Part shown: piece after piece, positions 1 through 21,828 of the stretch
Numbering within the stretch: the stretch's first letter is position 1
Layout of the letters: every line of letters begins with the position of its first letter
Assembly: GCA_001515955.1 (NCBI GenBank)
Contig: LOES01000126.1
Location: 1 to 22,046, forward strand
Direction: 5' to 3'
Source: Clostridia bacterium BRH_c25
GTDB taxonomy: Bacteria; Bacillota_A; Clostridia; Lutisporales; Lutisporaceae
Length of the DNA stretch: 22,046 nt
Position numbers and translations under genes: made by a program
The notes under the pieces: generated by a model
The model's input: only the letters and a program-made list of their open reading frames with translations
Databases searched by the model: none
Told to the model about the DNA's origin: nothing

Positions 1-201
1 AACAACACCTGACAGCTCATGTCCGATCGTTGACGGAGCCTTGATAAACGGGTGCACATCATGATAAAGATGGAGGTCGCTGCCACATACAGCCGAGTAC
101 TGTGTTTTAAGTAAAATGTCATTCGCATTAAGCGCCGGTATCTCACTTTCTTTGAAAATTAATTTTTTTGCCGACTCAACCCAGGCCATTTTTCTCATCA
201 T
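1..201 (-). CDS. Zinc-dependent medium-chain alcohol dehydrogenase, N-terminal part (runs off left edge)
   Basis: I translated the minus strand from ATG at 201; it is open to the window edge for 67 codons, so only the N-terminus is present. The protein contains CGSDLH at about residues 40-45, where the Cys is the usual first catalytic zinc ligand, and GHELSG at about 60-65, the conserved GHE zinc/active-site motif of GroES-like medium-chain dehydrogenases. Such enzymes oxidise or reduce an alcohol/aldehyde pair with NAD(P). The start lies 2 nt after the cupin stop codon, and its ribosome binding site (GGTGGTGGG) is also the sequence encoding the cupin's C-terminal Gly residues, so the two genes are probably translationally linked. 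ATGs at 198 and 189 are alternative starts. The family is secure; the substrate is unknown, though the operon implies a sorbitol/threonine-dehydrogenase-like oxidoreductase in the same catabolic route. Confidence 0.85.
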   Translation of the reverse strand, partial: MMRKMAWVESAKKLIFKESEIPALNANDILLKTQYSAVCGSDLHLYHDVHPFIKAPSTIGHELSGVV

Positions 202-203
202 AA

Positions 204-566
204 TTATTTCCCACCACCTTCAGGTTGTTTTTCCTTTGGAATAAGGGCATAGAACATTTCGATGCCGCCCTCTGTCAGCCCCTCTATCATTCCGTGCATT
301 TCTCCCGACCTTGCATGCATCATATCCCCCGGGCCCAATTCAAGTATTTCGCCCATTATATGTGCCCTGCCCCGTCCGCGAAGAATAATATATATTTCGT
401 CATGCTCAGGATGGATATGCGGCTCCCCGGCCTTACCCATAGGCCAATTTGCAACACCGCTGGACACTATATTTGAAGTTACTGAATAATCCTTCAGAAG
501 ATATTTGATTTTAAGTCTCTCAGATACCTGCGTCCATTCAATATTTTTTTCATTTACAATTTGCAT
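204..566 (-). CDS. Small single-domain cupin protein
   Basis: A 120-residue protein with one cupin barrel. Motif 1 is seen as H50-x-H52 followed by E57, inside GEPHIHPEHDEIY, and motif 2 as the LGPGD turn at 77-81 and H91; these are the usual 3-His/1-Glu metal ligands. Single cupins of this size act as isomerases, dioxygenases, lyases or binding proteins, and the sequence does not decide between them. The start at 566 has a GGAGGG site upstream. It sits 36 nt after the PreA-like gene and 2 nt before the alcohol dehydrogenase, so it belongs to the sigma-54 operon and probably acts on an intermediate of that pathway. No signal peptide or membrane segment is visible, so it should be cytoplasmic. 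No specific function can be given. Confidence 0.85.
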   Translation of the reverse strand: MQIVNEKNIEWTQVSERLKIKYLLKDYSVTSNIVSSGVANWPMGKAGEPHIHPEHDEIYIILRGRGRAHIMGEILELGPGDMMHARSGEMHGMIEGLTEGGIEMFYALIPKEKQPEGGGK

Positions 567-602
567 AAGCTGCCCTCCGTTTTGTTTTGTTTGGTTTTCA
601 AC

Positions 603-1760
603 CTATCTTTTGACCATATCAATTGCCTTTTTAGGGCAGAAATACGTGCAAAGTCCACAGCCGTCACACTTACTGTTAATTGATGCCTTTTTGCTGTCAA
701 AACTGATTCCGTCAAAAATACAAATGTCAGTGCATCTCCCGCAGCCTGAGCACAATTCTTTATCAATAGCCGCAATCAGTGTTTTTTCTCTCGATACATC
801 CTTAAGGCCTTTGATCCTATCACCTGTCACAATACCCTTGAAGTCCTCAATAGAGTCATATCCGTTTTTATCCATGTATGCAGCAAGGCCTTCATTCAGC
901 TTTTCGATTACAGAGTAGCCGTAGGTATATACAAGGAAGCAAACCTGGACAGTTGTAGCACCGGCAAGAATGAATTTGACAATATCCTGCCACTCCACAA
1001 CCCCGCCACAGCCGCTTATGGGGATATTCATTTTAGGATACATTTCAGAAATCCAACGCAGCGCATAATGGATGGACCATGGTCCTCCGTGTCCGCCGTA
1101 ACCACCATGCAAAACAGGCAGCTTTGCGTCAATGTCAATATCCATGCCCAGGCAGCGGCTGAAAGCACAGACTCCGTCCGAGCCGCACTTCTGCATAATG
1201 GCTGCAGTTACAACAGGGTTCTCTATTTGCGGTGTGATTTTTGTAAAAACCGGGATCTTTACTGCCTTCTTGACAACTGGAACAAAATCCTCCACCATTT
1301 GGTTGATGCGGCCAAGGGAACCCATTACATAGTCGCTGTGCGGGCATGAAAGGTTCATTTCAATAGCGTCGGCGCCAGCCGCCTCAACCATTTTTGCCCA
1401 GGCCTCCCAGTAATCGGCCGTACTGCAGCCGATGCTTGCAATAATCTTTGTTCTAAGGTTTTTCTTGCATTTCTTTATATCATTGCAGTATTCTTCGATA
1501 TCGTACTCATACCCCTGCTCATAGGACAGGTTGGTGGTGGAGTTGTAATCCTTGCAGCCCCTTTTAATAATTGTAAAACGTGGGGTTGGACTGTGAGCCA
1601 TAAGCTCCTCCTGGAATTTCGTCTTTAGAACAACTGCCCCCACACCGTACTTATCGGCTTTAACCACGTTATCGTAGGCCTTTGTGATTCCGGAAGAGGC
1701 TAAAATAATAGGCGAATCCAGCTCTAAGCCGCCATAATTAACCCTTAACTTTTTGTTCAT
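603..1760 (-). CDS. PreA-like dihydroorotate/dihydropyrimidine dehydrogenase family flavoprotein with two [4Fe-4S] motifs
   Basis: A 385-residue protein. Residues 1 to about 310 form an FMN-binding TIM barrel of the dihydroorotate/dihydropyrimidine dehydrogenase family: MNLSCPH at 135-141, GGYGGHGG at 219-226, a GCGGV phosphate loop at 250-254 and the QVC strand near 272. The C-terminus carries two ferredoxin motifs, C337-x2-C340-x2-C343-x3-C347 and C365-x2-C368-x2-C371-x3-C375-P. This layout matches PreA, the catalytic subunit of bacterial dihydropyrimidine dehydrogenase. However, the Cys used as general acid in that enzyme (ACGQ motif) is replaced by Leu149 in my by-eye alignment, and the substrate-contact NT(V/I) segment reads FSR at 200-202. 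It therefore probably reduces or oxidises something other than uracil/thymine. No PreT-like partner is in the window. The ATG at 1760, preceded by GAGGGG, is preferred over upstream in-frame starts, which have no ribosome binding site. Confidence 0.82.
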   Translation of the reverse strand: MNKKLRVNYGGLELDSPIILASSGITKAYDNVVKADKYGVGAVVLKTKFQEELMAHSPTPRFTIIKRGCKDYNSTTNLSYEQGYEYDIEEYCNDIKKCKKNLRTKIIASIGCSTADYWEAWAKMVEAAGADAIEMNLSCPHSDYVMGSLGRINQMVEDFVPVVKKAVKIPVFTKITPQIENPVVTAAIMQKCGSDGVCAFSRCLGMDIDIDAKLPVLHGGYGGHGGPWSIHYALRWISEMYPKMNIPISGCGGVVEWQDIVKFILAGATTVQVCFLVYTYGYSVIEKLNEGLAAYMDKNGYDSIEDFKGIVTGDRIKGLKDVSREKTLIAAIDKELCSGCGRCTDICIFDGISFDSKKASINSKCDGCGLCTYFCPKKAIDMVKR

Positions 1761-1788
1761 CCTTATTCCCCTCTTTATATATAGTGAG

Positions 1789-1822
1789 GTGCCCAAAATA
1801 ATGCTTAACATATTTCGGGCAC
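1789..1822 (-). other. Hairpin in the leader of the PreA-like gene
   Basis: On the minus strand, arms GTGCCCGAAATA and TATTTTGGGCAC pair over 12 bp (one G-U) around a 10-nt loop. It lies 29 nt upstream of the PreA-like start and inside the operon. No U-run follows it, so it is not a standard terminator. It could act as an mRNA stabiliser, a processing site or a binding site. Confidence 0.6.
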
Positions 1823-1903
1823 TTTCTTTCATTCTATATTGAACGCACAAAAGTATTTACATTGGGCAAAGTGCGAATTCAATAACAATCAAGGAAACAT
1901 TTA

Positions 1904-1945
1904 CGCGAAATTTGAATTAAGAATGTAAAATGTTTTTCGCGAAAT
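1904..1945. repeat. CGCGAAAT direct repeats in the gap between the DRE-TIM and PreA-like genes
   Basis: CGCGAAAT occurs at 1904-1911 and 1938-1945, each preceded by an A/T-rich ACATTTA- or ATGTTTT-type segment. The second copy is part of the 10-bp palindrome TTTCGCGAAA (1935-1944). CpG-rich motifs stand out in this AT-rich gap of about 190 nt (1761-1951). They might be an operator for an internal promoter; no convincing promoter was found. Confidence 0.35.
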
Positions 1946-1951
1946 ATATTA

Positions 1952-3211
1952 TTATTCTGCTAGAACGCGTTTTGCAATAGCAACAAAATCTTCTTCAGAT
2001 AAAAGTGTTCTTCTTACAAAGCATTCCTGCTTTACCTCTGTAAGTACCTGCTCCCGTTGTTCCTTGGTCGCAGCTTCAAACCCGTTTCTGTCAAGATAGA
2101 AATCAATTGTAAGCTTGCCGCTCAGGTAACCGATAAAATAGTCCTCCTCCTTGCGTCCGACTACATGGGGCAGGTAAGGATAAGCGATCGGCTTGAAGCC
2201 TGCCTGTCGAAGTGACTCGGTATAATGACTTACAACACCGGATTCTATACCAAAACAGTTTTTACCGAACACAGTTTTGTTTACATTCGGATGAATTCCA
2301 GTAATATCGCTGACTACACGGGATGTTTCCTGCAGCTTGGAAAGGTTGACATTTGCGCGGTTGCCCGTAAGAATACCGAAGGTTGTTGCAACCTCTTCAG
2401 TTGCAAGGTTACCGGTTCTCTCACCCAATGAGTTCATTGCTGTATGGATAACCTTTGCACCGTTTTGCACTGCAGCCATCGCAGTTGCCATACCCATGCC
2501 AAAATCATTATGGACATGGAATTCAAGCTGGATTCCGGGGAACCACTCGCTCATCTTTTTAACAGCATAACCTATTGCCTGCGGAGTTGCAACTGCGAAG
2601 GTATCAACAATAGTCAGGGCATCAGCCCCGGCCTCTACTGCAGTCTGGTACAGCTTCCTGCTGAACTCCAGGGGAGTTCTGGAAAAATCCCAGCCCATGA
2701 AGCAAGTCCATAGACCGGCTTTTTTAGCGGCTGATATATTATCATAAATTCTTTTTTTAACCTCGTCTTCATTGAGCTTGTAAGCATATTTACAAAGGTA
2801 AGGATTCACGGTATGCTCGACAATAATGCTGCGAACACCGCATTCAACTGATAATGCAACGTCCTCGGGATTTGCACGTGCAAAGGAAACAATCTCAGAT
2901 TTTAAATTCAGCTTCATGACCTCTTTAATCGCATCACGAAGTTCTTCAGATATGATAGGCATGCCTATTTCTATCCGGTCTACCCCAAGCTCGCTTAGCT
3001 GCTGTGCGATGCGCACCCTCTCACTCTTGGAATAGGCAACCTTTGGAGTTTGTTCCCCGTCACGAAGTGTACAATCGTGAATAATAACCTTTTCAGGAAT
3101 TCCCTTTAAATTCTCAGGCAAAAAGTTCAGGGGTGATATCCAGAAACGGTCATTATCAAAATACGGCTGACCTTCCAGGGGATAAAAATCAAATTCTTCA
3201 TATTTCTTCAT
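1952..3211 (-). CDS. DRE-TIM metallolyase family enzyme (isopropylmalate/homocitrate synthase-like)
   Basis: A 419-residue protein of the HMGL-like/DRE-TIM family, whose members make or break C-C bonds next to a carboxylate using a divalent metal. The signature HDCTLRDGEQ lies at 45-54, metal ligands H232 and H234 in the FHVHNDFG motif at 231-238, and the catalytic-loop motif NSLGERTGN at 260-268. A segment FGKNCFGIESG (315-325) resembles the GENAFAHESGIH segment that follows the barrel in isopropylmalate and homocitrate synthases, but its His before ESG is Ile. The C-terminal LeuA regulatory domain is absent and there is an N-terminal extension of about 40 residues. The ATG at 3211 has GGAGGT 7 nt upstream and is preferred over the upstream in-frame start at 3256. 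No other leucine or lysine biosynthesis genes are nearby; the operon suggests a catabolic aldol or Claisen (or retro-) reaction. Re-citrate synthase or a citramalate-type enzyme are weaker alternatives. Confidence 0.85.
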   Translation of the reverse strand: MKKYEEFDFYPLEGQPYFDNDRFWISPLNFLPENLKGIPEKVIIHDCTLRDGEQTPKVAYSKSERVRIAQQLSELGVDRIEIGMPIISEELRDAIKEVMKLNLKSEIVSFARANPEDVALSVECGVRSIIVEHTVNPYLCKYAYKLNEDEVKKRIYDNISAAKKAGLWTCFMGWDFSRTPLEFSRKLYQTAVEAGADALTIVDTFAVATPQAIGYAVKKMSEWFPGIQLEFHVHNDFGMGMATAMAAVQNGAKVIHTAMNSLGERTGNLATEEVATTFGILTGNRANVNLSKLQETSRVVSDITGIHPNVNKTVFGKNCFGIESGVVSHYTESLRQAGFKPIAYPYLPHVVGRKEEDYFIGYLSGKLTIDFYLDRNGFEAATKEQREQVLTEVKQECFVRRTLLSEEDFVAIAKRVLAE

Positions 3212-3231
3212 TGTCTTACCTCCGTATATCA

Positions 3232-3260
3232 CGGTGTGGCAAAACAATTTTGCCACACCG
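3232..3260 (-). other. Perfect 13-bp hairpin between transporter and DRE-TIM genes
   Basis: Arms CGGTGTGGCAAAA and TTTTGCCACACCG (3232-3244, 3248-3260) are perfectly complementary around a 3-nt loop. On the minus strand the hairpin follows the transporter stop by 27 nt and ends 20 nt before the next start codon. No U-tract follows on the minus strand, so it more likely stabilises the upstream mRNA end or marks a cleavage point than terminates transcription. Confidence 0.7.
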
Positions 3261-3287
3261 CAACAGTTTTTTAGTATAAAGGCTTTT

Positions 3288-4550
3288 TTATTTTAATATG
3301 TTAACCCAGTAGTTTCCAGTTGCGAGCAATGAAAGCAATACGGCAATGATAACTGAAGTATTCAGTCTCCCGGATGCTTTTAATTCGCCCATAACCTCTT
3401 TTTTATTGGCAATAATCAGGAACAGGATAGTAACGATCGGGAAGAACGTCAGATTGAAGCCCGAACCGTATGAGCTTATTGCGAAGGCGTTCCAGCCAAG
3501 CAAAGGAGCCGACAGTCCGAAGAGTGTAACAACCAGTTCACTGATTTTGAATCTATTTGATGTCAGATCAGCATCCCATTTCAGCAAGTCTGTTATGATA
3601 TATCCAGAAACCAGACATTGTGAAACCATCGTGGAAAGAACCGAGCCTAAAAGGCCAAGAGAAAGGAGAACAACCGATGCACGGCCCGCAAAGGGTTCAA
3701 ATGTTGCAGCCATTGTGCCTGCTCCAGTTACAACAATTCCTTGTGGAAACAGTACCGATGCAGTAGCTATGATAACGGCAAATTGTACAAATACCAGCAT
3801 AAAGTTTGTGTAGGTCAATTCGAAAACACTGAGAGACTTACGCTCTGAACCCCATTTGTTCTGCTTTGCGCCATAAGCTGCGAGAGCAGGAACATTGATG
3901 GCAATCGCCGCGCCCATAAGTCCGGAAAGAAGAACGAGCTCTTGAGAAGTACCTTTAAAAGTAGGAATGAATCCTTTTAATGCACCTGCCCAGTCAATCG
4001 GGACAATGAAGAGGATAAGAATAAAAGATCCAAGTAAAAGCCATACCATCCAACGTAAACACTGCTGTATGATCTTAACACTTTTTTCGCCCTTTGCAGG
4101 GTTAAGAACCACAGCCAATACAAAGACAAATCCGATTATAGTACCGATCTTTGGAGTTACTCCGAACAGGGTGCTCATAATGTTGCCTATCAGCGCATAT
4201 TGAATAGCATGGAATACGGTGTTGACTATAAAGATAGAAACGCCGGTAATCCAGGCAGCCCACTCGCCAAGATATTCTCTGGCTAAACTAACAGGGCCGT
4301 GGCCTGTTTGCAACGTCATTCTTACGAATAGAATACATACGATCCAAATAACAAAAACCTGCGGCAAGATTGCCCAAAGATATGTGAAGCCTGTCTTGGA
4401 AGCAACTGCACCTGCATTTGCAACTGTAGCTCCCCCAATATTGAGTGCTATGGCAAGCCACGCCGGACCCATCAGTTTGGCATATGCCTGCAGTTTTGAA
4501 AAACCGGTTTTAGTATTAGCCGTTTCAAGTGTCATTTTTTCCAATTCCAT
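3288..4550 (-). CDS. Nramp-fold (APC/LeuT superfamily) transporter lacking metal-binding motifs
   Basis: A 420-residue integral membrane protein with about eleven hydrophobic segments, of Nramp length and pattern. It starts TM1 with LMGPAWL (26-32), has the EPF-x-GRA and LGLLGSVLSTMVSQ segments (about 285-310) seen late in Nramp proteins, and GLMGAAIAINV (210-220) at the Nramp TM6 site. The metal-coordinating TM1 motif DPGN is replaced by GGAT (39-42), and the TM6 MPHN motif by AINV (217-220), in my by-eye alignment. It is therefore unlikely to carry Mn or Fe by the known mechanism. As second gene of the sigma-54 operon, between a hydrolase and metabolic enzymes, it probably imports the pathway substrate. 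The start at 4550 has GGAGGG upstream. An NCS1 nucleobase permease was considered but fits less well. Confidence 0.78.
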   Translation of the reverse strand: MELEKMTLETANTKTGFSKLQAYAKLMGPAWLAIALNIGGATVANAGAVASKTGFTYLWAILPQVFVIWIVCILFVRMTLQTGHGPVSLAREYLGEWAAWITGVSIFIVNTVFHAIQYALIGNIMSTLFGVTPKIGTIIGFVFVLAVVLNPAKGEKSVKIIQQCLRWMVWLLLGSFILILFIVPIDWAGALKGFIPTFKGTSQELVLLSGLMGAAIAINVPALAAYGAKQNKWGSERKSLSVFELTYTNFMLVFVQFAVIIATASVLFPQGIVVTGAGTMAATFEPFAGRASVVLLSLGLLGSVLSTMVSQCLVSGYIITDLLKWDADLTSNRFKISELVVTLFGLSAPLLGWNAFAISSYGSGFNLTFFPIVTILFLIIANKKEVMGELKASGRLNTSVIIAVLLSLLATGNYWVNILK

Positions 4551-4583
4551 TATCTAACCCTCCATTTGTAATTTAGTATTTAA

Positions 4584-5261
4584 TCACTTTATTGCAAATA
4601 CGCGGGCAGTAGAAGCTTCAAGACCTTTTAGTTTGAGAGCCCCGACAACCAATTTAAATTCACTTCCAAAACCGGAAGCCAGGAGTTCGGGAATGTTTGT
4701 GATGTATTCCAGAATGTAGATTTCTTTGCCAAGTAAAATATTATGCACAGGGAATGCTGCATCACCTGGTTTATCGGTCTGGAAATCTATAGCTACCATT
4801 GCGATTTCTTTTTCTACCATCCATTGGGCTGCATCCACCGACAGATAGGGTGAAACCTTGAAATAATCCTCCTTGCCCCAGTTGGCATCTGTATAGCCTG
4901 TTGTAACAACAAGGCGGACGCCCTTGAGCTTTTTGCCCTTTGTTGCTTCTTCAAGGTCTGCAGCGGTAATTTCCTCCAAATTCTTTTTGTCAGGGAAATG
5001 TGCCCAGACTGCATCCCCAGCGAGTACATCTACAGGGATGTTGTCGATGGTTTTTTCACCATTAAAGTAATTGTAGTGCATAGGTGAATCCAAATGTGTT
5101 CCGCCATGGCAGAAAAGCAAAGCTTTGCTTGCATACCTGTGTGAGCCTGTAGGATCGGTGTCAGGGACAAGAACATGTTCAAATTTTGGCTTCGGATACC
5201 AATCCACCGGAAAACAAGGCATGCCCTCATAGATTGTCAGTGTAAGGTCAATTGCTCGCAT
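4584..5261 (-). CDS. Cyclase-family metal-dependent hydrolase (kynurenine formamidase-like)
   Basis: A 225-residue protein with the hallmark HGGTHLDSPMH at 52-62, matching the HxGTHxDxPxH metal-binding motif of the cyclase family (H52, H56, D58 and H62 expected to bind metal). Characterised members include bacterial kynurenine formamidase and isatin hydrolase, which open amide or lactam bonds. It is the first gene after the sigma-54 promoter, with AAAGGAGG 8 nt before the ATG at 5261, and is followed after 33 nt by the transporter. First place in the operon suggests it performs an early ring-opening or deacylating hydrolysis. No tryptophan-degradation partners (kynureninase, tryptophan dioxygenase) are nearby, so kynurenine formamidase is not assigned. 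Length and motif fit the family; the substrate is unknown. Confidence 0.87.
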   Translation of the reverse strand: MRAIDLTLTIYEGMPCFPVDWYPKPKFEHVLVPDTDPTGSHRYASKALLFCHGGTHLDSPMHYNYFNGEKTIDNIPVDVLAGDAVWAHFPDKKNLEEITAADLEEATKGKKLKGVRLVVTTGYTDANWGKEDYFKVSPYLSVDAAQWMVEKEIAMVAIDFQTDKPGDAAFPVHNILLGKEIYILEYITNIPELLASGFGSEFKLVVGALKLKGLEASTARVFAIK

Positions 5262-5319
5262 TATATGCCTCCTTTAATGTTATTTATTTGAAACATGCAT
5301 GCTTCTAATAAATAAATAT

Positions 5320-5336
5320 AGCAAAGAGTGTGCCAA
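5320..5336 (-). promoter_or_regulatory. Sigma-54 (-24/-12) promoter for the catabolic operon
   Basis: The minus strand reads TTGGCACACTCTTTGCT, matching the RpoN consensus TGGCACG-N4-TTGCW in all key bases: GG at -24 (5333-5334), GC at -12 (5321-5322) and the correct spacing. Transcription should start near 5309, leaving a leader of about 48 nt to the hydrolase start at 5261. The adjacent sigma-54 activator gene supports the call. Confidence 0.9.
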
Positions 5337-5406
5337 TCTATTTTTTAAGTTAAAATGATAACAAATTCAATGCTTTTTGACAAAACATTAACAAATAATG
5401 CGTTGC

Positions 5407-5429
5407 TTTTTTCAACATTGTTGAAAAAA
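5407..5429. promoter_or_regulatory. Palindromic upstream activator site for the sigma-54 regulator
   Basis: A perfect inverted repeat: arms TTTTTTCAACA and TGTTGAAAAAA, 11 bp each, around one central base. It lies about 75 bp upstream of the -24 element, a normal place for an enhancer bound by a Fis-type HTH activator. It also lies just upstream of the regulator gene, so bound activator may repress its own transcription. Confidence 0.72.
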
Positions 5430-5449
5430 TATACACTCTATGCTACATT
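5421..5449 (+). promoter_or_regulatory. Possible sigma-70-type promoter of the regulator gene
   Basis: TTGAAA (5421-5426) and TACATT (5444-5449) with a 17-nt spacer, on the plus strand before the regulator. The -35 box lies inside the right arm of the palindrome, which would allow autoregulation. The -10 match is weak and the leader would be short. Confidence 0.35.
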
Positions 5450-5472
5450 AATAAATGAGGGGGTTGTATTAT

Positions 5473-6804
5473 ATGGATTTTTCTGCTTTTGACATACTTA
5501 CCGTTGGAATACTGGCAATTGACACGGATTGCAAAATAATATATCTAAATAAGGCCTATGCTGATTTTTTACAGTCGGATCCAGCCTCATTTATAGGTAA
5601 AGATATACGTGACGTGGTACACTACACAAAATTAGACCATGTTGTAAAATCCGGCATACCTGAAATCGGTGTTTGGCAGAGAACCGACAAGGGTTATCTT
5701 TTCGGCAACCGCATACCAATTTTCGAAAATGGCAGGATTGTAGGGGCCATTGCCGAAATGGTTCTTAAAAACTTTGAAGAGCTGGACGTTGTATCCCAGA
5801 AGCTGCGCGATATGGAAGCTCAAATCAGGTATTTGACCAAAGAACTTATAAATACCGAGATAAACAACAATGTTCAGCTGCTTTTTCAGTCGGATAAAAT
5901 GCGCAGTATTGTTGAGAAAGTACAAAAGATTGCACCTCTGGATACAACTATCCTTATTACCGGAGAGACAGGCTCCGGCAAAGAGGTCATTGCTGATTTA
6001 GTATACAAATACAGTGGCCGTCAGGATTTTCCCTTTGTCAAGCTGAATTGCGCCGCACTGCCGATGGAGCTGGTAGAATCAGAGCTTTTCGGATACGAAA
6101 AGGGTGCATTTACAGGCGCAAACCAGAATGGAAAAGTGGGTAAATTTGAAATTGCCAATAACGGAGTTCTGTTCCTTGACGAAATTTCTTCCATGCCCCT
6201 TGCCATACAGTCAAAGCTGCTCCGTGTTTTACAGGATAAAGAGGTTGAGCGTCTGGGAGGGAACACTAAGAAAAAAGCCAATGTTAAAATTATTGCTGCC
6301 ACCAATGAAAACCTGGAGGACCTTGTGCGCAAGCAAAAATTCCGGGAGGATCTATTTTACCGTTTGAATGTTATACAAGTAAATATTCCTCCACTTCGTG
6401 AACGCCGTGAGGATATCATTATGCTTGCAAATCATTTTCTCGAAAGATACTGTCAACGTTTTAATAAAAAATCAAAATACTTTACTCATACTGCCGCACA
6501 ATTGATTACCAGCTATGATTGGCCGGGCAATGTGCGGGAGCTGAAAAATGTTATGGAGCGCCTGGCTATTATGTGCGACGGTACCCTTGTCACACAAACC
6601 GATATTAAGGAAAATACACCAATCTATACAGGCGCAAAAACGATTAGAAGCTTAAAAGAGCAAATTGACCAGACGGAAAAGCGCATTATCACTACTGCAC
6701 TGGAAAAAGCAAACGGAAACAAAGCAATCGCAGCAGCTTCTTTAGGCATTAACCGGACAACCCTTTACAGCAAACTGGAAAAATATAACCTGCTAGACAG
6801 TTAA
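5473..6804 (+). CDS. Sigma-54-dependent transcriptional activator with N-terminal PAS domain
   Basis: A 443-residue bacterial enhancer-binding protein. Residues 1 to about 100 form a PAS-like sensor domain, followed by a helical linker to about 130. The AAA+ domain shows Walker A GETGSGKE (164-171), the sigma-54 contact loop GAFTGA (211-216), Walker B GVLFLDEI (231-238) and the arginine-finger region REDLFYRL (291-298). A Fis-type helix-turn-helix lies at about 414-438. There is no response-regulator receiver domain, so PAS probably senses a ligand or redox cue directly. The ATG at 5473 follows GAGGGGG at 5457-5463 and is preferred over the ATG at 5455, which precedes that site. It is the only plus-strand gene, divergent from the operon it very likely activates through the palindrome and -24/-12 promoter in the shared gap. 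The inducer is unknown, presumably the pathway substrate. Confidence 0.95.
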   Translation: MDFSAFDILTVGILAIDTDCKIIYLNKAYADFLQSDPASFIGKDIRDVVHYTKLDHVVKSGIPEIGVWQRTDKGYLFGNRIPIFENGRIVGAIAEMVLKNFEELDVVSQKLRDMEAQIRYLTKELINTEINNNVQLLFQSDKMRSIVEKVQKIAPLDTTILITGETGSGKEVIADLVYKYSGRQDFPFVKLNCAALPMELVESELFGYEKGAFTGANQNGKVGKFEIANNGVLFLDEISSMPLAIQSKLLRVLQDKEVERLGGNTKKKANVKIIAATNENLEDLVRKQKFREDLFYRLNVIQVNIPPLRERREDIIMLANHFLERYCQRFNKKSKYFTHTAAQLITSYDWPGNVRELKNVMERLAIMCDGTLVTQTDIKENTPIYTGAKTIRSLKEQIDQTEKRIITTALEKANGNKAIAAASLGINRTTLYSKLEKYNLLDS

Positions 6805-12682: not shown

Positions 12683-13629
12683 CTATTCCATCAGCCTGTT
12701 TTCCAATATCTGCTCCATGGAGAAATCCTCCACCCCCAGATAGTATACGGCTGTATCAATTAGCGCTTCCATAGGCAGCAGTCCTATTATCTCACTGCCT
12801 GTAATGGCCACACCATATCTTGCCGCTTCTATCCTTACAAGCTCAAAGGATCTGTAAAGGGCTGTCTTTGTATAGTCCGTCATGTTCATGGATATCTGGA
12901 CTATCCCCCTGTCCTTCAGCTCGATTCCTATTGCCTTGCAATATCTCAAGCCTCCGTTAAGGAATCTGACATTCCTTGCAATCTTATTTGCAATATCCAT
13001 GTTGTTTGTGCTCAAATTGACGTTGAAGGCTACAAGAGGCATTCTGGCACCGATTACAGTCGCACCTGCCGTTGGATGTATTGCTGCCTGGCCGTAGTCA
13101 GGTCTCCACTCCGGCAGCTTTATCTTCTCAGCCATTCCTTCGAATTCGCCCTTGCGGATATTTGCCAGATTCTCTCTCTGTGGATCTGCCGCTGCCTTTT
13201 CATACAGGAAAACCGGAAGATCATACTTCTCTGATGCTTCCTTTGCCACTTCCTTTGCAAGCTCAATAGCTTAGATGCTTCCTTTGCCACTTCTTTTGCA
13301 AGCTCAATAGCTTCTGTCATACTGACATTCTTTATGGGAATGAAAGGCACTACATCTATTGCCCCCATCCTCGGATGCTGCCCCTGGTGCTTGGTCATAT
13401 CTATAAGCTGTATCGCTATGCCCATAGCTTCAAGCATTGCATTCTTTACAGCCTGAGGCTCTCCCACAACTGTTACTACTACTCTGTTATGATCCTGGTC
13501 TCTCTTGTAATCCAGCAGCTTGACTCCGTCTTTTCCTCTGAAGGGATTCACTATTTTCTCTATTTTGTCCAAATCCCTGCCTTCACTAAAATTCGGTACA
13601 CACTCAATTATTCTGCTCATTCCGCTCAT
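12683..13629 (-). pseudogene. ftcD: Glutamate formimidoyltransferase, frameshifted by a 41-bp duplication
   Basis: The enzyme moves the formimino group of N-formimino-glutamate to tetrahydrofolate, the last carbon step of histidine breakdown. The upstream part (13629 to about 13275) encodes the family N-terminus, with VPNFSEGRD, DHNRVVVTVVG and GQHPRMGAIDVVPF. The downstream part, in another frame, continues with EKYDLPVFLYEKAA, AAIHPTAGATVIGARMP and FNVNLST to the normal C-terminus at 12683. The frames are separated by a tandem duplication at 13233-13314 whose net insertion is 41 nt. Removing one copy restores AKEVAKEASEKYDLP and a continuous 301-residue protein, the usual length of the single-domain enzyme. 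As it stands, translation goes out of frame after AKEVAKEAS. The start at 13629 has GGGAG upstream, 14 nt after hutU. Sequencing error is possible, but a 41-bp insertion is an unusual one. Confidence 0.88.
13233..13314. repeat. 41-bp tandem duplication inside ftcD
   Basis: Two head-to-tail 41-bp units (13233-13273 and 13274-13314) both begin GATGCTTCCTTTGCCACTTC. They differ at the 21st base (C versus T) and at the last base. The net insertion of 41 nt is not a multiple of three and breaks the reading frame. Confidence 0.95.
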
Positions 13630-17612: not shown

Positions 17613-18329
17613 TTAAATAGTACCATTATCCACATGGATATTTTGACCCGTTATTGAAGCTGCTTTGTCAGATATTAAAAATGCTGCTGTTTCAGCAACG
17701 GAATCTATGCTTGTTTCTTTTTTCAGTGAAGTGCGTTTATATATCCTATTCTTTTGCTCTGATGTTAATGAATCACTCATCTTTGTTTCCATGAAGCCGG
17801 GGACTACACAATTGGAACGTATGCCAATGGATCCCCATTCTCTTGCTGTGTTCTTTGAAAATGCCTCCAGTGCACCTTTTGTAGCTGCATACATACTAAG
17901 CCCTTTGTATCCTGTATGGGCCGATACAGAAGAAATATTGACGATACTGCCGCTGATCTTATTTAAAAGCATATTCCTAATAATATACTTTGTCAGCATT
18001 ATTGGCGAAAAAACATTTATACTAAAGGAAGTATTTAGTTGATCAAGATTAGCATTAGTTACTATTTCATCATAGGCAAATGCCGCATTATTAACCAAAC
18101 CATCAAACCTTTCCCCACTTTTTTGCAAACCTAATATAAGGTCTTTAATTCGGTCTGTTTGAATTAAGTCAAATTCTTTGTGCAAATAATTAGGATTTGT
18201 CTCCAATAATGTGACATTACTATTTGTTTTTCTGCTAAGTCCTATAACCCTGTAAGCTTCTGCAAGCAGGGTCCTGGCAATAGCGCACCCCAAATCCCCG
18301 GATGTTCCGGTAACCAAAACTGTTTTCAT
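17613..18329 (-). CDS. FabG-like short-chain dehydrogenase/reductase
   Basis: A 238-residue classical SDR. The nucleotide motif TGTSGDLG lies at 7-14, NNAA at 80-83, the catalytic Ser134 in NISS, and Tyr147/Lys151 in YAATK, followed by VVPGFMETKM (175-184). Length and motifs fit 3-oxoacyl-ACP reductases. With a KAS III and two carrier proteins in the same operon, it probably reduces a beta-ketoacyl-ACP to the 3-hydroxyacyl form with NAD(P)H. Its start overlaps the ligase stop by 4 nt, so it is translationally coupled and is the last gene of the cluster. Another SDR substrate such as a nucleotide sugar cannot be excluded. Confidence 0.92.
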   Translation of the reverse strand: MKTVLVTGTSGDLGCAIARTLLAEAYRVIGLSRKTNSNVTLLETNPNYLHKEFDLIQTDRIKDLILGLQKSGERFDGLVNNAAFAYDEIVTNANLDQLNTSFSINVFSPIMLTKYIIRNMLLNKISGSIVNISSVSAHTGYKGLSMYAATKGALEAFSKNTAREWGSIGIRSNCVVPGFMETKMSDSLTSEQKNRIYKRTSLKKETSIDSVAETAAFLISDKAASITGQNIHVDNGTI

Positions 18330-19549
18330 CTTTTTCTCACCTTTTTCCCAGTATTAGTTTTTTCAATCTTATCCTTGATACTTATAATTCTAGGTATTTT
18401 CCACTTCTGAAGCTTATTAGCCAAACAGGCAAATATCCTCTTGTTTATATTCTCCTCTTTGACAGCCAGCACAACATCTGCAGCCAAGATCTTACCCAGC
18501 ATCTTGTTATCCATACCATAAATAAGAACATCAATTATATTTTCTATCTTTAAAATCTCTTCCTCGACCTCTATAGGGTTAACTATATACCCCCCCACAT
18601 TTATAAAGTCACTTTCCCTTTGAAGAAATCTTATTTTTCCATCCAAATACTCTACGATATCCCCTGTTTTATACCACTGGTCATTGCTATCAAGGTTGAA
18701 TTCTCCCATAATACTGCGATGAATGCATAATTCACTGTCTTCAATTTTTATCATATCAGCCATATAGTCTTCTATATGAAAATACTCTCCATCTGCTGCG
18801 AACAAGCTTCCTGCTTCTGTAGATGCGTATACATTTGTTATTTTGGCGGAAGGAAACTTCTTCGATAATAATGATTTCAGCTTCTCATCCATTTTTTCAC
18901 CACCTGAAGTGATGTTTTTTATAGAGTCATATTGATCATTAAGAGTAGGTATAATAAATCTATAGAAGGATGGTGTAGCTGAAACATTTGTTACTTTATA
19001 ATTCTTCAGCAGAAGGTTTATATCATATTTCCCAGGGTCGTTACCGATAACTACAGTATTTCTATTCATAAAAGCTTGCAGAAAAACTTGAAGCCCCGCA
19101 AAGTGTGTGGGGTTATAGCTAAACAACCATATATTATCTGCATATTTTGCGCTCTGCCGTACAGCCCTGGAAGCGCTTGAAAAACTGTGCTTTACCTTCT
19201 TTGGTTTCCCTGTGGTGCCGGAGGTAAATAAAGAAACACTCCAATTCTTCTTGTTCTTCTCAATCCTATTATATAAATCTTCCATATCTCTGATTTCAGT
19301 ATTTATAGAATAGACTTCTTTGATTTCACTATGGCGAAGCCCTTGATGTTGAAGCTCAGTATCACTCCAGTCTCCATCCAGCAATACTACTTCTTTACCA
19401 AAAGCGATGGATTTTGCCAAATGAAGAAATACATCCTTTGGATCCTTGCAGTAAATATATTTTTTCAAATCCATGGCATTCATTTGATTTATGAAATCAT
19501 TATAAGAAATGCTGTACTCTCTTAAGGTATCAATAATAAATACTTTCAT
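18326..19549 (-). CDS. Compact AMP-dependent acyl ligase (ANL superfamily)
   Basis: A 407-residue adenylate-forming enzyme, shorter than the usual 500-550. Core motifs are present: A3 TSGTTGKPKK (109-118), A5 YASTE (241-245), A7 YKTGD (293-297), the RESDFINVGGYIVNP hinge (311-325) and the A10-like NTGKK lysines (399-403). It should activate a carboxylic acid as acyl-AMP and pass it to a carrier-protein thiol. The N-terminal subdomain is reduced, as in other stand-alone acyl-ACP ligases. It overlaps the ACP gene upstream and the SDR gene downstream by 4 nt each, making that ACP the likely acceptor. The acid cannot be told from sequence. Confidence 0.9.
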   Translation of the reverse strand: MKVFIIDTLREYSISYNDFINQMNAMDLKKYIYCKDPKDVFLHLAKSIAFGKEVVLLDGDWSDTELQHQGLRHSEIKEVYSINTEIRDMEDLYNRIEKNKKNWSVSLFTSGTTGKPKKVKHSFSSASRAVRQSAKYADNIWLFSYNPTHFAGLQVFLQAFMNRNTVVIGNDPGKYDINLLLKNYKVTNVSATPSFYRFIIPTLNDQYDSIKNITSGGEKMDEKLKSLLSKKFPSAKITNVYASTEAGSLFAADGEYFHIEDYMADMIKIEDSELCIHRSIMGEFNLDSNDQWYKTGDIVEYLDGKIRFLQRESDFINVGGYIVNPIEVEEEILKIENIIDVLIYGMDNKMLGKILAADVVLAVKEENINKRIFACLANKLQKWKIPRIISIKDKIEKTNTGKKVRKR

Positions 19550-19770
19550 TTCTCAAGCCTTTCCAATACGTCTTTAATAGTATCTGGCATGCCTGCTTCA
19601 AAAATATCCACTTTAAATACATTTTCAATGTTGACTGTCAAAACTGCCAAGTCTATGGAGTCAAACCCAATATCATTTCTTAAAGAAGCCTCTTCATCCA
19701 ATATACTTATAGTCTCTCTATCTGAATTTTCGAGTATTTCATTAATTAACTCTAACAGCTTGTTTTTCAT
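19546..19770 (-). CDS. Acyl carrier protein (ligase-linked)
   Basis: A 74-residue acidic carrier protein with the phosphopantetheine site GFDSIDLA; the modified Ser is residue 38 from the chosen start, close to the usual position. Helix pattern and length fit a type II ACP. The ATG at 19770 has GGAGG 5 nt upstream; an ATG at 19782 preceded by GAGG would add four residues and is also possible. The gene overlaps the acyl ligase by 4 nt, so it probably receives the acyl group activated by that enzyme. It differs clearly from the other ACP in this cluster, suggesting separate roles. Confidence 0.92.
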   Translation of the reverse strand: MKNKLLELINEILENSDRETISILDEEASLRNDIGFDSIDLAVLTVNIENVFKVDIFEAGMPDTIKDVLERLEK

Positions 19771-19795
19771 GTTTTCCTCCATATAGAACCTCTAG

Positions 19796-20857
19796 CTATA
19801 TAAATAATATTTCTGAGCAGAATACGTCCGATAATTCCATGGCGGCAGCCCCCCATGACAGGCCAACACCGAAGCCGGACATTATTACCTTTAATTTTCT
19901 GACTTTGACATCATTCTTCAGCTTATCACATATTAAAAATGGGATGGTTGCACCTCCGGTATTCCCGAAGCTATCCATGTTTAGAGGCACTTTATCCAGA
20001 GGAATATCGGCCTTTTGTGCTATATGGTTTAACATAAAATTATTCGCTTGATGGAGAAGTACTTTGTCAACATCCTCTGAAGTCCATTCATTTAGTTCAA
20101 TTACTTCCTTAAGTATTACAGGCACCTCCCTAAGTGCAAAAAGGAAGATTCCCATTCCATCCATTTGAATATGTTCATCCGCTCTTATGTTTCCATCATC
20201 GTCCTTTTTCTCGACTTTAGATTCATCTGTACATGGGTATCTGTTTGAACCGGCAGGTATAATCAAACTATTTGCGCCTGAGCCATCGGTTTTTAATATA
20301 AAGGAGCTTCCGCTGTTTTCATCAGAAAACTCTACTGCGGTAGCGGACACACCATCGCCAAATATCAAAACTGTCGACTTGTCTTTAGGCGATACCCTTC
20401 TGCTTATGGTATCACCTACTACTAATATAATCCTTTTGCATGTTCCGGCTGATATAAACTGACTGGCTAAAAACAAGCCGTATATGTAAGCAGAACAGCC
20501 TAAGTTAATATCTAAAGTCAAAGTTGTTATTGGCAATCCAAGCCTGTCTTGCAATATGCAGGAGGTAGCAGGCATTATATAATCGGGTGTTTGAGAAATG
20601 AAAATAAGTCCGTCTATGCTTTCTTTCTCCCAACCTATATCTGCAATTAATTTTTCTGCAGCTGCATATCCAAGATCAGATGTTGTTTGACCTTCTTTTG
20701 CATAGTACAGCTGCTTTACCCCTATAATGCTTTTCATCTTTTTGACGTAATTCTCATCAAAATAGGGTTTTACCATTTCTTCTATAAGAATTGGGTTGTT
20801 AGGCACAGCACAGCATATACCCTTTATTTTTGCATTGTTAAACCTTGCTTTAGCCAT
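19796..20857 (-). CDS. Beta-ketoacyl-ACP synthase III family protein
   Basis: A 353-residue thiolase-fold condensing enzyme of the FabH type. The catalytic triad is Cys121 (NLGCSAY), His269 (LLHQAN) and Asn299 (FGNTGG), all intact; the GFGVGLSWGA segment near residues 330-339 forms the usual C-terminal glycine loop. FabH-type enzymes condense an acyl-CoA starter with malonyl-ACP. Here the neighbours suggest one round of extension on a dedicated ACP, followed by reduction by the SDR, rather than housekeeping fatty-acid synthesis, because FabD, FabF, FabZ and FabK/I are absent. GGGGAGGG lies 4 nt before the ATG at 20857. There is a 37-nt gap to the PPTase gene. Confidence 0.93.
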   Translation of the reverse strand: MAKARFNNAKIKGICCAVPNNPILIEEMVKPYFDENYVKKMKSIIGVKQLYYAKEGQTTSDLGYAAAEKLIADIGWEKESIDGLIFISQTPDYIMPATSCILQDRLGLPITTLTLDINLGCSAYIYGLFLASQFISAGTCKRIILVVGDTISRRVSPKDKSTVLIFGDGVSATAVEFSDENSGSSFILKTDGSGANSLIIPAGSNRYPCTDESKVEKKDDDGNIRADEHIQMDGMGIFLFALREVPVILKEVIELNEWTSEDVDKVLLHQANNFMLNHIAQKADIPLDKVPLNMDSFGNTGGATIPFLICDKLKNDVKVRKLKVIMSGFGVGLSWGAAAMELSDVFCSEILFI

Positions 20858-20894
20858 GTAACCCTCCCCTTGGCGCTTTCACCATTATGCCTTC

Positions 20895-21542
20895 CTATCT
20901 GATCTGATTAAGTAATTGCTCAGTGTCAGTAATAACAATACCTTCCGGAAATACCCCCTGGCTTGAACATACTGATAGCATATACTCTTCATCAATACTA
21001 TAGTCATTAAAAAAAGCTGTGTCATGCAGAGCATTAGTTGATAACAACGGAAGTGTCACTCCACTGCCAAGCATTTTTTGATAGCTCTCCCCCATTGTCC
21101 AGCACTTATAAAAATACTTCATCTGATCTGGAACTTCTATTTTTAACATCTCTTCATAATCATCTGCAGCAAGTATTGATTTGACCACATCAAAGTCCGA
21201 AGCTTTGATCTTCTCTATATCAATACCTATAGGAAAGCTGTCAAAGGCACCTACAATCCAATGACCGGAATGAGAAATATTAAAAAACACTTGCGGCATA
21301 TTATTTATATAAGGCTTTCCCATTTCATTGCGGAAAACCTCTATATCAGAATTCTTAACCTGGAACATATCACAAATTGTTGCACGTATGATCAAGCTTC
21401 CAAGTAAGCTTCTTTCTGCATCCTGCCACCTATAAAACTTTAGTATTTTTTCTTGCTCCTGCTTATCCAGAAAAGAAAGAATCTCCCGAAATAACAGGCC
21501 GTCAAGTTTTGTACAGTGCTTTAAAGCAAATATTTTAAGCAT
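20895..21542 (-). CDS. Sfp-type 4'-phosphopantetheinyl transferase
   Basis: A 215-residue enzyme that transfers phosphopantetheine from CoA to carrier-protein serines. Motifs from the chosen start: NEMGKPY (72-78), FNISHSGHW (87-95), GIDIE with metal ligand D108 (106-110) and WTMGESYQK with E152 and K156 (148-156). The usual WxxKE lysine is Gly here, a minor variation. Length fits the Sfp/AcpT group. ATG at 21542 begins one base after the ACP stop; upstream in-frame starts would overlap the ACP gene and have no better ribosome site, and translational coupling is likely. Its presence suggests the two ACPs of the cluster need a dedicated activating enzyme. Confidence 0.92.
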   Translation of the reverse strand: MLKIFALKHCTKLDGLLFREILSFLDKQEQEKILKFYRWQDAERSLLGSLIIRATICDMFQVKNSDIEVFRNEMGKPYINNMPQVFFNISHSGHWIVGAFDSFPIGIDIEKIKASDFDVVKSILAADDYEEMLKIEVPDQMKYFYKCWTMGESYQKMLGSGVTLPLLSTNALHDTAFFNDYSIDEEYMLSVCSSQGVFPEGIVITDTEQLLNQIR

Positions 21543-21543
21543 T

Positions 21544-21828
21544 TTACTTTTCAGTATTACCACCCTTATCAAGCACAAATTGAGCTAGAGTTTCTACAGA
21601 ACGCAAGTGCTTTTTGAACTCCGCAGGTGATATTCCCTGGAGCTTCACATTAAATACCTGTTCTATTCCGGCCACAACATCCAGGGCTTCAACAGAATCC
21701 AACCCTAAGCCTTCGCCAAACAAAGGAGTATCATCCCCAATTTCCTCTGGGGTAATATCCTCTAACTCCAAGCGGTTAATTAAAATATCTTCCTTTATAA
21801 TCTGCTTAATCTTTGCTATATCCATCAT
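21544..21828 (-). CDS. Acyl carrier protein (PPTase-linked)
   Basis: A 94-residue carrier protein with the modified Ser45 in GLGLDSVEALD and a C-terminal tail of about ten residues after helix 4. The loop ITPEEIGDDTPLFGEGLGLDS is of a type often seen in ACPs tied to FabH-like or glycan and secondary-metabolite pathways. GGAGGTG lies 8 nt before the first of two adjacent ATGs (21828, 21825). It is followed one base after its stop by the PPTase, and preceded by 14 nt after the partial gene at the window edge. It is probably the extension ACP used by the KAS III, but this is inference. Confidence 0.92.
   Translation of the reverse strand: MMDIAKIKQIIKEDILINRLELEDITPEEIGDDTPLFGEGLGLDSVEALDVVAGIEQVFNVKLQGISPAEFKKHLRSVETLAQFVLDKGGNTEK

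Follow-up and report, generated by a model that had tools for sequence, protein, structure and literature searches.

What does a cell do with an operon that sets a cyclase-family hydrolase, an Nramp-like transporter, an HMGL/DRE-TIM protein and a PreA-like flavoprotein side by side? The question is raised by the left part of a 22,046-nucleotide stretch of Clostridia bacterium BRH_c25 (contig LOES01000126.1, positions 1 to 22,046; hereafter the window), where an initial annotation had described a catabolic operon without a recognised pathway. Our analysis supports one sigma-54-controlled unit, catabolic in style and conserved in relatives, and leads us to a tentative reading of its task as the anaerobic catabolism of a polyhydroxylated carbocycle, probably of plant origin, either a cyclitol or a hydroaromatic acid of the quinate/shikimate type.

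Layout, promoter and conservation of the operon

In a Pfam search of the window proteins, six genes were found on the minus strand, running from about 5261 down to 1: a cyclase-family (PF04199) metal-dependent hydrolase (4584..5261; 1.1e-24), an Nramp-like transporter (3288..4550; Nramp 2.4e-39), an HMGL/DRE-TIM protein with an N-terminal extension of about 37 residues (1952..3211; HMGL-like 1.2e-60), a PreA/DHOD-like flavoprotein with two C-terminal [4Fe-4S] clusters (603..1760; DHO_dh 6e-33, Fer4), a small cupin (204..566; Cupin_2 5e-10), and the 67 N-terminal residues of a medium-chain dehydrogenase/reductase (MDR) of the zinc type, truncated by the window end (1..201; ADH_N 1.5e-8). Diverging from them on the plus strand is the gene for a sigma-54-dependent activator with PAS, AAA+ and Fis-type helix-turn-helix domains (5455..6804; Sigma54_activat 1e-69, HTH_8 2.2e-13, PAS weak). 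The activator and the six named co-directional genes of the initial annotation are thus all in place, including its zinc alcohol dehydrogenase, present here as a fragment.

The sigma-54 -24/-12 promoter of the operon, TGGCACACTCTTTGCT (5320..5335, minus strand; TGGCAC-ACTCT-TTGC), has 0 mismatches to the consensus. Counterparts occur at the same place in both relatives compared, TGGCAT-GGACT-TTGC in locus L017 and TGGCAT-GGGCT-TTGC in locus L001; this comparison, like that of the palindrome below, covered the window, L017 and L001. When one mismatch was permitted, the whole window held 3 sites against 0.88 expected, and 6 of 100 shuffles held at least 3, so only the exact, correctly placed site serves as evidence. 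A looser pattern, TGGCAY-N5-TTGCW, was chosen after inspecting the relatives; simple shuffling of the 193-base intergenic DNA produced it in 2 of 20,000 trials. Upstream of the promoter lies a near-palindrome, TTTTTTCAACAATGTTGAAAAAA (5407..5429, strand not assigned), with a similar counterpart in L017 and a weaker one in L001; it is a probable, putative activator-binding site. The activator carries the GAFTGA motif, and sigma-54 is encoded in all three related genomes (described below), so the PAS-type activator and consensus promoter first proposed from the window sequence both hold. The activator is PrdR-like and not PrdR, the regulator linked to proline reductase (426 bits against the NF041552 cut-off of 795), and a role in controlling proline reductase was rejected for that reason.

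A scan of GTDB genomes recovered three distinct related loci, with HMGL proteins 73-88% identical to that of the window. The order regulator, cyclase, Nramp, HMGL, PreA is kept in 3/3, and the supposition that these genes form a set is borne out by their staying together. Cupin and first MDR dehydrogenase (MDR1) genes follow in L001 and L002, where the MDR proteins are 66-68% identical to the window's N-terminal fragment; in genome G003 they stand on a second contig, whose end falls inside PreA. The initial annotation had looked to the genes left of position 1, and these could be viewed through the three relatives, each of which has an IlvD/EDD enzyme and a second MDR dehydrogenase beyond the window-edge position. 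L001 and L002 add a crotonase-like gene there (L002 partly by eye), and G003 has an inserted enolase-superfamily-like orphan (MR_MLE_C E 0.0012, below cut-off; AlphaFold model pLDDT 32). The operon thus reaches past position 1 and, to judge by these relatives, probably goes on with at least the IlvD/EDD and second MDR genes.

The gene set is rare. Across the genome draws sampled, which overlap one another, we found no ortholog-bearing genome beyond the three. Among 398 phylum genomes the cyclase had two matches, G003 and G002, and among 391 class genomes one, G003; a further draw gave 0 of 299 but had no positive control and is uninformative. For the HMGL protein, 393 order genomes yielded two matches, one in G003 and one a 43% paralog in G015, and a draw of 25 yielded three, in G001, in G002 and, as a 43% paralog, in G796. 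PreA was found in 1 of 197 (G003) and 2 of 46 (G001 and G002). Among viral contigs, single-sequence search gave no relative and alignment search one 37% fragment. Relatives in plasmid records were all below 60% identity, with no Nramp-like relative at E<=1e-20, and the annotated neighbours of four plasmid matches were uninformative on the operon.

Protein searches showed a close group of relatives set apart by a gap. Full-length PreA relatives were 68-85% identical, followed by a gap down to about 51%; the HMGL search gave 20 full-length proteins in the range 70-90% and two more at 59-61%, with the next at 51%, and the cyclase search 48 relatives at E<=1e-20. Among these relatives, sources name Clostridiales, Bacillota, a Treponema and an uncultured Dysosmobacter. 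Each protein cluster is represented in the lists by its longest contig alone, and we compared contig sizes among the top 43, 44 and 44 full-length clusters, partial clusters being left out. Identical sizes occurred in 9 PreA-HMGL pairs (8 different lengths), 7 PreA-cyclase pairs and 5 HMGL-cyclase pairs; 2000 length jitters gave 0.09, 0.08 and 0.06 such pairs on average and at most 4, 2 and 2. The equal sizes suggest shared contigs, with pairs of the three genes travelling together in diverged clades: in a clade where PreA and HMGL are about 50% and the cyclase 60% identical, all three pairings are found, on different contigs, and in one with a cyclase identity of about 50% the pairs found are of PreA and cyclase only. 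The trio may thus be an old module.

Protein families and their closest labels

The cyclase-family protein is a clear PF04199 member (87.6 bits against a cut-off of 23.1), and its metal motif, HGGTHLDSPMH, fits HxGTHxDxPxH in an alignment of 19 sequences. Its predicted model (pLDDT 90) had 34 Foldseek matches at E<=0.001, comprising isatin hydrolases, kynurenine formamidases and other cyclase-type hydrolases, which fail to separate the subfamilies. Kynurenine formamidase KynB of tryptophan catabolism was rejected (43 bits against the TIGR03035 cut-off of 223). A precedent for C-C bond hydrolysis is an enzyme of Clostridium scatologenes, 25% identical to isatin hydrolase and called 'cyclase'-family, which opens the cyclohexane-1,3-dione dihydrophloroglucinol by Mn2+-dependent retro-Claisen hydrolysis (PMC10470551). 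We propose that the window protein is likewise a retro-Claisen C-C hydrolase. The C. scatologenes enzyme presumably belongs to PF04199, a mapping of our own.

The HMGL protein retains the LRDGEQ, H-x-HND and GERTGN motifs, and scores below the cut-offs for LeuA/NifV synthases (best model 302 bits against a cut-off of 517; those of the ten best NCBIfam models span 414-748). The first His of HESGIH in subdomain II, present in 3/3 synthases, is absent from 7/7 orthologs and paralogs. Among the 120 best of 954 relatives at E<=1e-60, it was found in 0 of the 107 that could be parsed (13 unparsed), and the second His position, reached across a two-residue insertion, held His in 66 of the 107, Asp in 38 and another residue in 3. 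LRDGEQ was found in 119 of the 120 (1 unparsed), in place of the LRDGxH that holds the catalytic His of 4-hydroxy-2-oxovalerate aldolase (DmpG/MhpE). Where their sources name them, these relatives are mostly labelled homocitrate or isopropylmalate synthase. For the window protein we propose an aldolase.

Paralogs at 42-43% identity in four genomes (loci L018, L025, L026 and L027) lie among genes of a sugar-acid type. A GntR-like gene is present in 4/4, as is a dehydrogenase of the 2-hydroxyacid or Ldh_2 kind, with TRAP carriers in 3/4 and short-chain dehydrogenases/reductases (SDRs) in 2/4. Pfam confirmed two SDRs, the Ldh_2 and one 2-hydroxyacid dehydrogenase; the others were assigned by eye. 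The paralog subfamily in these loci has likewise lost the first HESGIH His and carries a WVSP N-terminal extension, and L025 also has FAH-like and 2-oxoacid:ferredoxin oxidoreductase-like genes. Separately, the HMGL-PreA gap of the window (1761-1951) is 191 bases long with long inverted repeats, against 17 bases in L001, and may hold an extra regulatory element in the window species.

The PreA-like protein fell short of PreA, the dihydropyrimidine dehydrogenase (243 bits against the NCBIfam equivalog cut-off of 335). In an alignment to 1gt8 it keeps the catalytic Cys in NLSCP, and the positions of N609, N736 and T737, which we take to be the pyrimidine-contact residues of dihydropyrimidine dehydrogenase, are S, S and R. 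Among the 120 best relatives, an exact-string search found NLSCP in 64, and the pocket Arg is present in 104 of the 109 parsed (11 unparsed). By eye, we saw no PreT gene in the window or at L001, L002, L016 and L017. With the PreA cut-off missed, the contact positions changed and no PreT seen at the loci, pyrimidine degradation was dropped as first choice. A Cetobacterium somerae plasmid (locus L029, 7992-9092) encodes a PreA-like 4Fe-4S protein, 31.5% identical, inside a purine-degradation-type cluster.

The dehydrogenases and the dehydratase bear on the substrate class. Among solved structures, MDR1 of G003 matched a ketose reductase best (2.2e-51), and its first six matches also hold an arabinitol (6.1e-49) and a sorbitol dehydrogenase (2e-44); solved matches further include threonine dehydrogenases and an unspecified alcohol dehydrogenase, and the best NCBIfam model, below cut-off, is threonine dehydrogenase. 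IlvD/EDD enzymes dehydrate diol acids. G001 and G002 hold 8 and 7 IlvD-family genes, and over the three genomes the G003 operon protein is 66-67% identical to the G001 and G002 operon copies against 34-40% to 14 other IlvD-family genes, which marks it as a dedicated paralog. An IlvD/EDD enzyme together with two MDR dehydrogenases points to a polyhydroxylated substrate.

Substrate class and rival explanations

From these families we infer the reactions, their order and the substrate class as follows. The Nramp-like carrier would import the substrate, and oxidation of its ring hydroxyls by the two MDR dehydrogenases would produce a cyclic 1,3-diketone. Retro-Claisen hydrolysis of a ring C-C bond by the metal-dependent cyclase would then give a keto acid, which the IlvD/EDD enzyme would convert by diol dehydration to a 2-keto-3-deoxy acid. 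The HMGL/DRE-TIM enzyme, presumably no longer an acetyl-CoA synthase, would release pyruvate or oxaloacetate and a C3 fragment by aldolase cleavage, and the PreA-like ferredoxin-linked flavoprotein might carry out one C=C reduction, or the reverse. This scheme draws on the conserved operon with its added IlvD and second MDR genes, the enolase-superfamily-like insertion (below cut-off) in G003, the polyol-type matches of MDR1, the dedicated IlvD, the cyclase precedent, the lost HMGL His and the sugar-acid-type paralog loci.

A cyclitol fits the order MDR, MDR, cyclase, IlvD, HMGL, and the preference of the DRE-TIM fold for tertiary alcohols suits a quinate-type acid. Several points weigh against a polyhydroxylated carbocycle, the chief of them that under either substrate both the PreA-like protein and the cupin lack an obvious function; a quinate-type acid also leaves IlvD idle, and reduction of a hydroxybenzoate explains the cyclase, HMGL and PreA trio better, if the MDR and IlvD enzymes worse. 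A specific version, which we consider quite improbable, is the non-aromatising quinate/shikimate fermentation that has long been missing, in which two dehydrogenases would form 3,5-didehydroquinate, the PF04199 enzyme would open it in the manner of dihydrophloroglucinol and a CoA-independent DRE-TIM split of the tertiary alcohol would yield oxaloacetate and hydroxyacetone. Hydroaromatic fermentation was reportedly described in the 1990s; our literature search on quinate/shikimate fermentation found nothing relevant. If true, this version would mean that rings can be cleaved by a new route and that the LeuA/NifV-like fold has a further class of reaction.

The strongest competitor to the carbocycle reading, unlikely in our estimation, is reductive dearomatisation: a polyhydroxybenzene bearing a carboxylate (gallate- or resorcylate-like) would be reduced by the PreA-like protein and ferredoxin, the resulting cyclohexane-1,3-dione would be opened by the cyclase, and the dehydrogenases and HMGL protein would finish, along the lines of phloroglucinol degradation with other enzymes. 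It would account for PreA, cyclase and HMGL seeming to be the most widely shared genes, and a set of reductase, cyclase-family hydrolase, dehydrogenase and C-C lyase has been described (PMC10470551). The Arg in the PreA pocket could bind the carboxylate, but it is found in a much wider PreA-like family and hence is not specific. Dearomatisation, moreover, has no need of two MDR dehydrogenases and an IlvD dehydratase.

One rival concerns a single gene and would hold for any substrate, namely that the Nramp-like protein supplies Mn2+ to Mn-dependent enzymes of the operon and does not carry the carbon source; we think this quite unlikely. In its favour, the characterised cyclase-family enzyme works best with Mn2+ (PMC10470551), and YcsG, an Nramp-family protein of Bacillus subtilis, is reported as a Mn2+ importer (PMC10448178). 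On the other side, the metal-site motifs are absent from the window protein in a weak alignment to 10ky (28.9 bits), DPGN being aligned to GGAT and MPH missing, so a carrier that would import an organic substrate is plausible. A second report disagrees on YcsG: there, Nramp-family PxpT was required for growth on 5-oxoproline and both PxpT and YcsG are described as necessary for its use, while the authors leave metal transport possible (PMC13274462). Between the transporter and HMGL genes, directly upstream of the ribosome-binding site, strong hairpins stand at the same position with differing sequences in the window (3232..3261, minus strand), L017 (18618-18715) and L001 (9907-9997), with folding energies of -29.6, -23.4 and -34.4 kcal/mol (no shuffle control) and a similar repeat, by eye, in L002. 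They may be mRNA-stability or processing elements.

As a substrate, a sugar acid that is branched or forms a lactone, isosaccharinate for example, strikes us as improbable. The cyclase would then act as a lactone hydrolase, followed by MDR oxidation and an HMGL retro-aldol cleavage of a tertiary 2-hydroxy acid. The HMGL paralogs in sugar-acid-type loci and the many IlvD-family genes of G001 and G002 would suit it, and the product moiety of DRE-TIM synthases is a tertiary 2-hydroxy acid. It leaves the PreA-like flavoprotein without a role, our literature search for isosaccharinate genes gave nothing relevant, and to our knowledge no lactonase activity has been described in the cyclase family.

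Catabolism of a nitrogen heterocycle or cyclic amide, by PreA-like reduction, amide hydrolysis by the cyclase and C-C cleavage, we rate as rather improbable. PreA/DHOD relatives act on pyrimidines, the cyclase family includes amide hydrolases, and PxpT offers an Nramp-family precedent on 5-oxoproline, metal transport not excluded (PMC13274462). There is also the PreA-like protein of the Cetobacterium purine-type cluster, and guanine deaminase-like (below model cut-off) and XdhA/XdhBC xanthine dehydrogenase genes stand directly downstream of the regulator, beside the operon, in L001 (967-6088) and L002 (956-6225, by eye). In the window and at L017 we saw no such purine-type genes next to the regulator, and purine degradation was rejected on that ground. 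The pyrimidine-contact positions are changed, and by eye the conserved set (window and relatives' loci) showed no PreT, amidase, dihydropyrimidinase, transaminase or ammonia gene. Of the initial annotation's catabolic operon, then, the unit and its conservation stand, while the cyclic amides, pyrimidines and pyridines that it suggested are less supported, given the PreA cut-off, the contact positions and the lack of visible nitrogen-release genes.

Two features lie elsewhere in the window. The formiminotransferase (FTCD) gene at 12683-13629 is split into two overlapping frames (13120-13629 and 12683-13249), a frameshift that may be genuine or a sequence error. At 17613-21828, genes of the acyl carrier protein, phosphopantetheinyl transferase, KAS III-like, AMP-ligase and SDR types form a small cluster, which hints at an uncharacterised unit for the biosynthesis of acyl or aryl compounds.

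Comparison with known systems

We found no description of this gene set in the open-licence literature, in keeping with the initial annotation, which recognised no such pathway. In Thermotoga-type inositol oxidation via diketo-inositol (IolM/IolN), an MDR dehydrogenase and two oxidations precede a hydrolytic opening to a keto-sugar acid. Our scheme resembles this route in its MDR dehydrogenase, two oxidations and subsequent hydrolytic ring opening; it differs in that the IolM scores of MDR1, 178 and 193 bits, stay under the cut-off of 450, and we know of no HMGL or PreA in the Thermotoga-type route. With PreA of NAD-dependent dihydropyrimidine dehydrogenase the flavoprotein shares the DHOD-type domain, two C-terminal 4Fe-4S clusters and NLSCP, and parts from it in score (243 against 335 bits), in the absence of a visible PreT at the loci and in the S/S/R positions. 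The HMGL protein has the barrel, LRDGEQ, H-x-HND and GERTGN in common with 2-isopropylmalate and homocitrate synthases (LeuA/NifV), as against the absent first HESGIH His, the two-residue insertion and the new N-terminal extension. Even if the substrate is another, to call these genes 'PreA', 'LeuA', 'kynurenine formamidase' or 'metal transporter' is probably wrong.

Like this operon, the 5-oxoproline operons of PxpT/YcsG place an Nramp-family protein within a catabolic unit (PMC13274462); no 5-oxoprolinase genes were seen here. A 2020 survey of Fe-S flavoenzyme clusters in Clostridia was built on another family of flavoenzymes and makes no mention of dihydropyrimidine, dihydroorotate, cyclase, HMGL or Nramp (PMC7371122).

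The nearest parallel is the phloroglucinol cluster of C. scatologenes (PGR, DPGC, TfD, TAL), which likewise joins a cyclase-family hydrolase to a reductase, a dehydrogenase and a C-C lyase in an anaerobe (PMC10470551). No PGR or TAL (BKACE) gene was seen in our conserved set, partly by eye. Where that cluster uses NADPH-dependent PGR and a lyase of the BKACE family (PMC10470551), the present operon has a PreA-like reductase and a DRE-TIM lyase candidate, along with MDR dehydrogenases, an IlvD dehydratase and an Nramp-like carrier. We would therefore describe it as a putative ring-opening catabolic operon made of known folds, in a combination that we found nowhere described and with at least two subfamilies of putative activity. 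If this is true, it would give a first function to the HMGL subfamily without the first synthase His (107/107 parsed members) and define an anaerobic ring-opening route that pairs a cyclase-family C-C hydrolase with a repurposed LeuA-like lyase.

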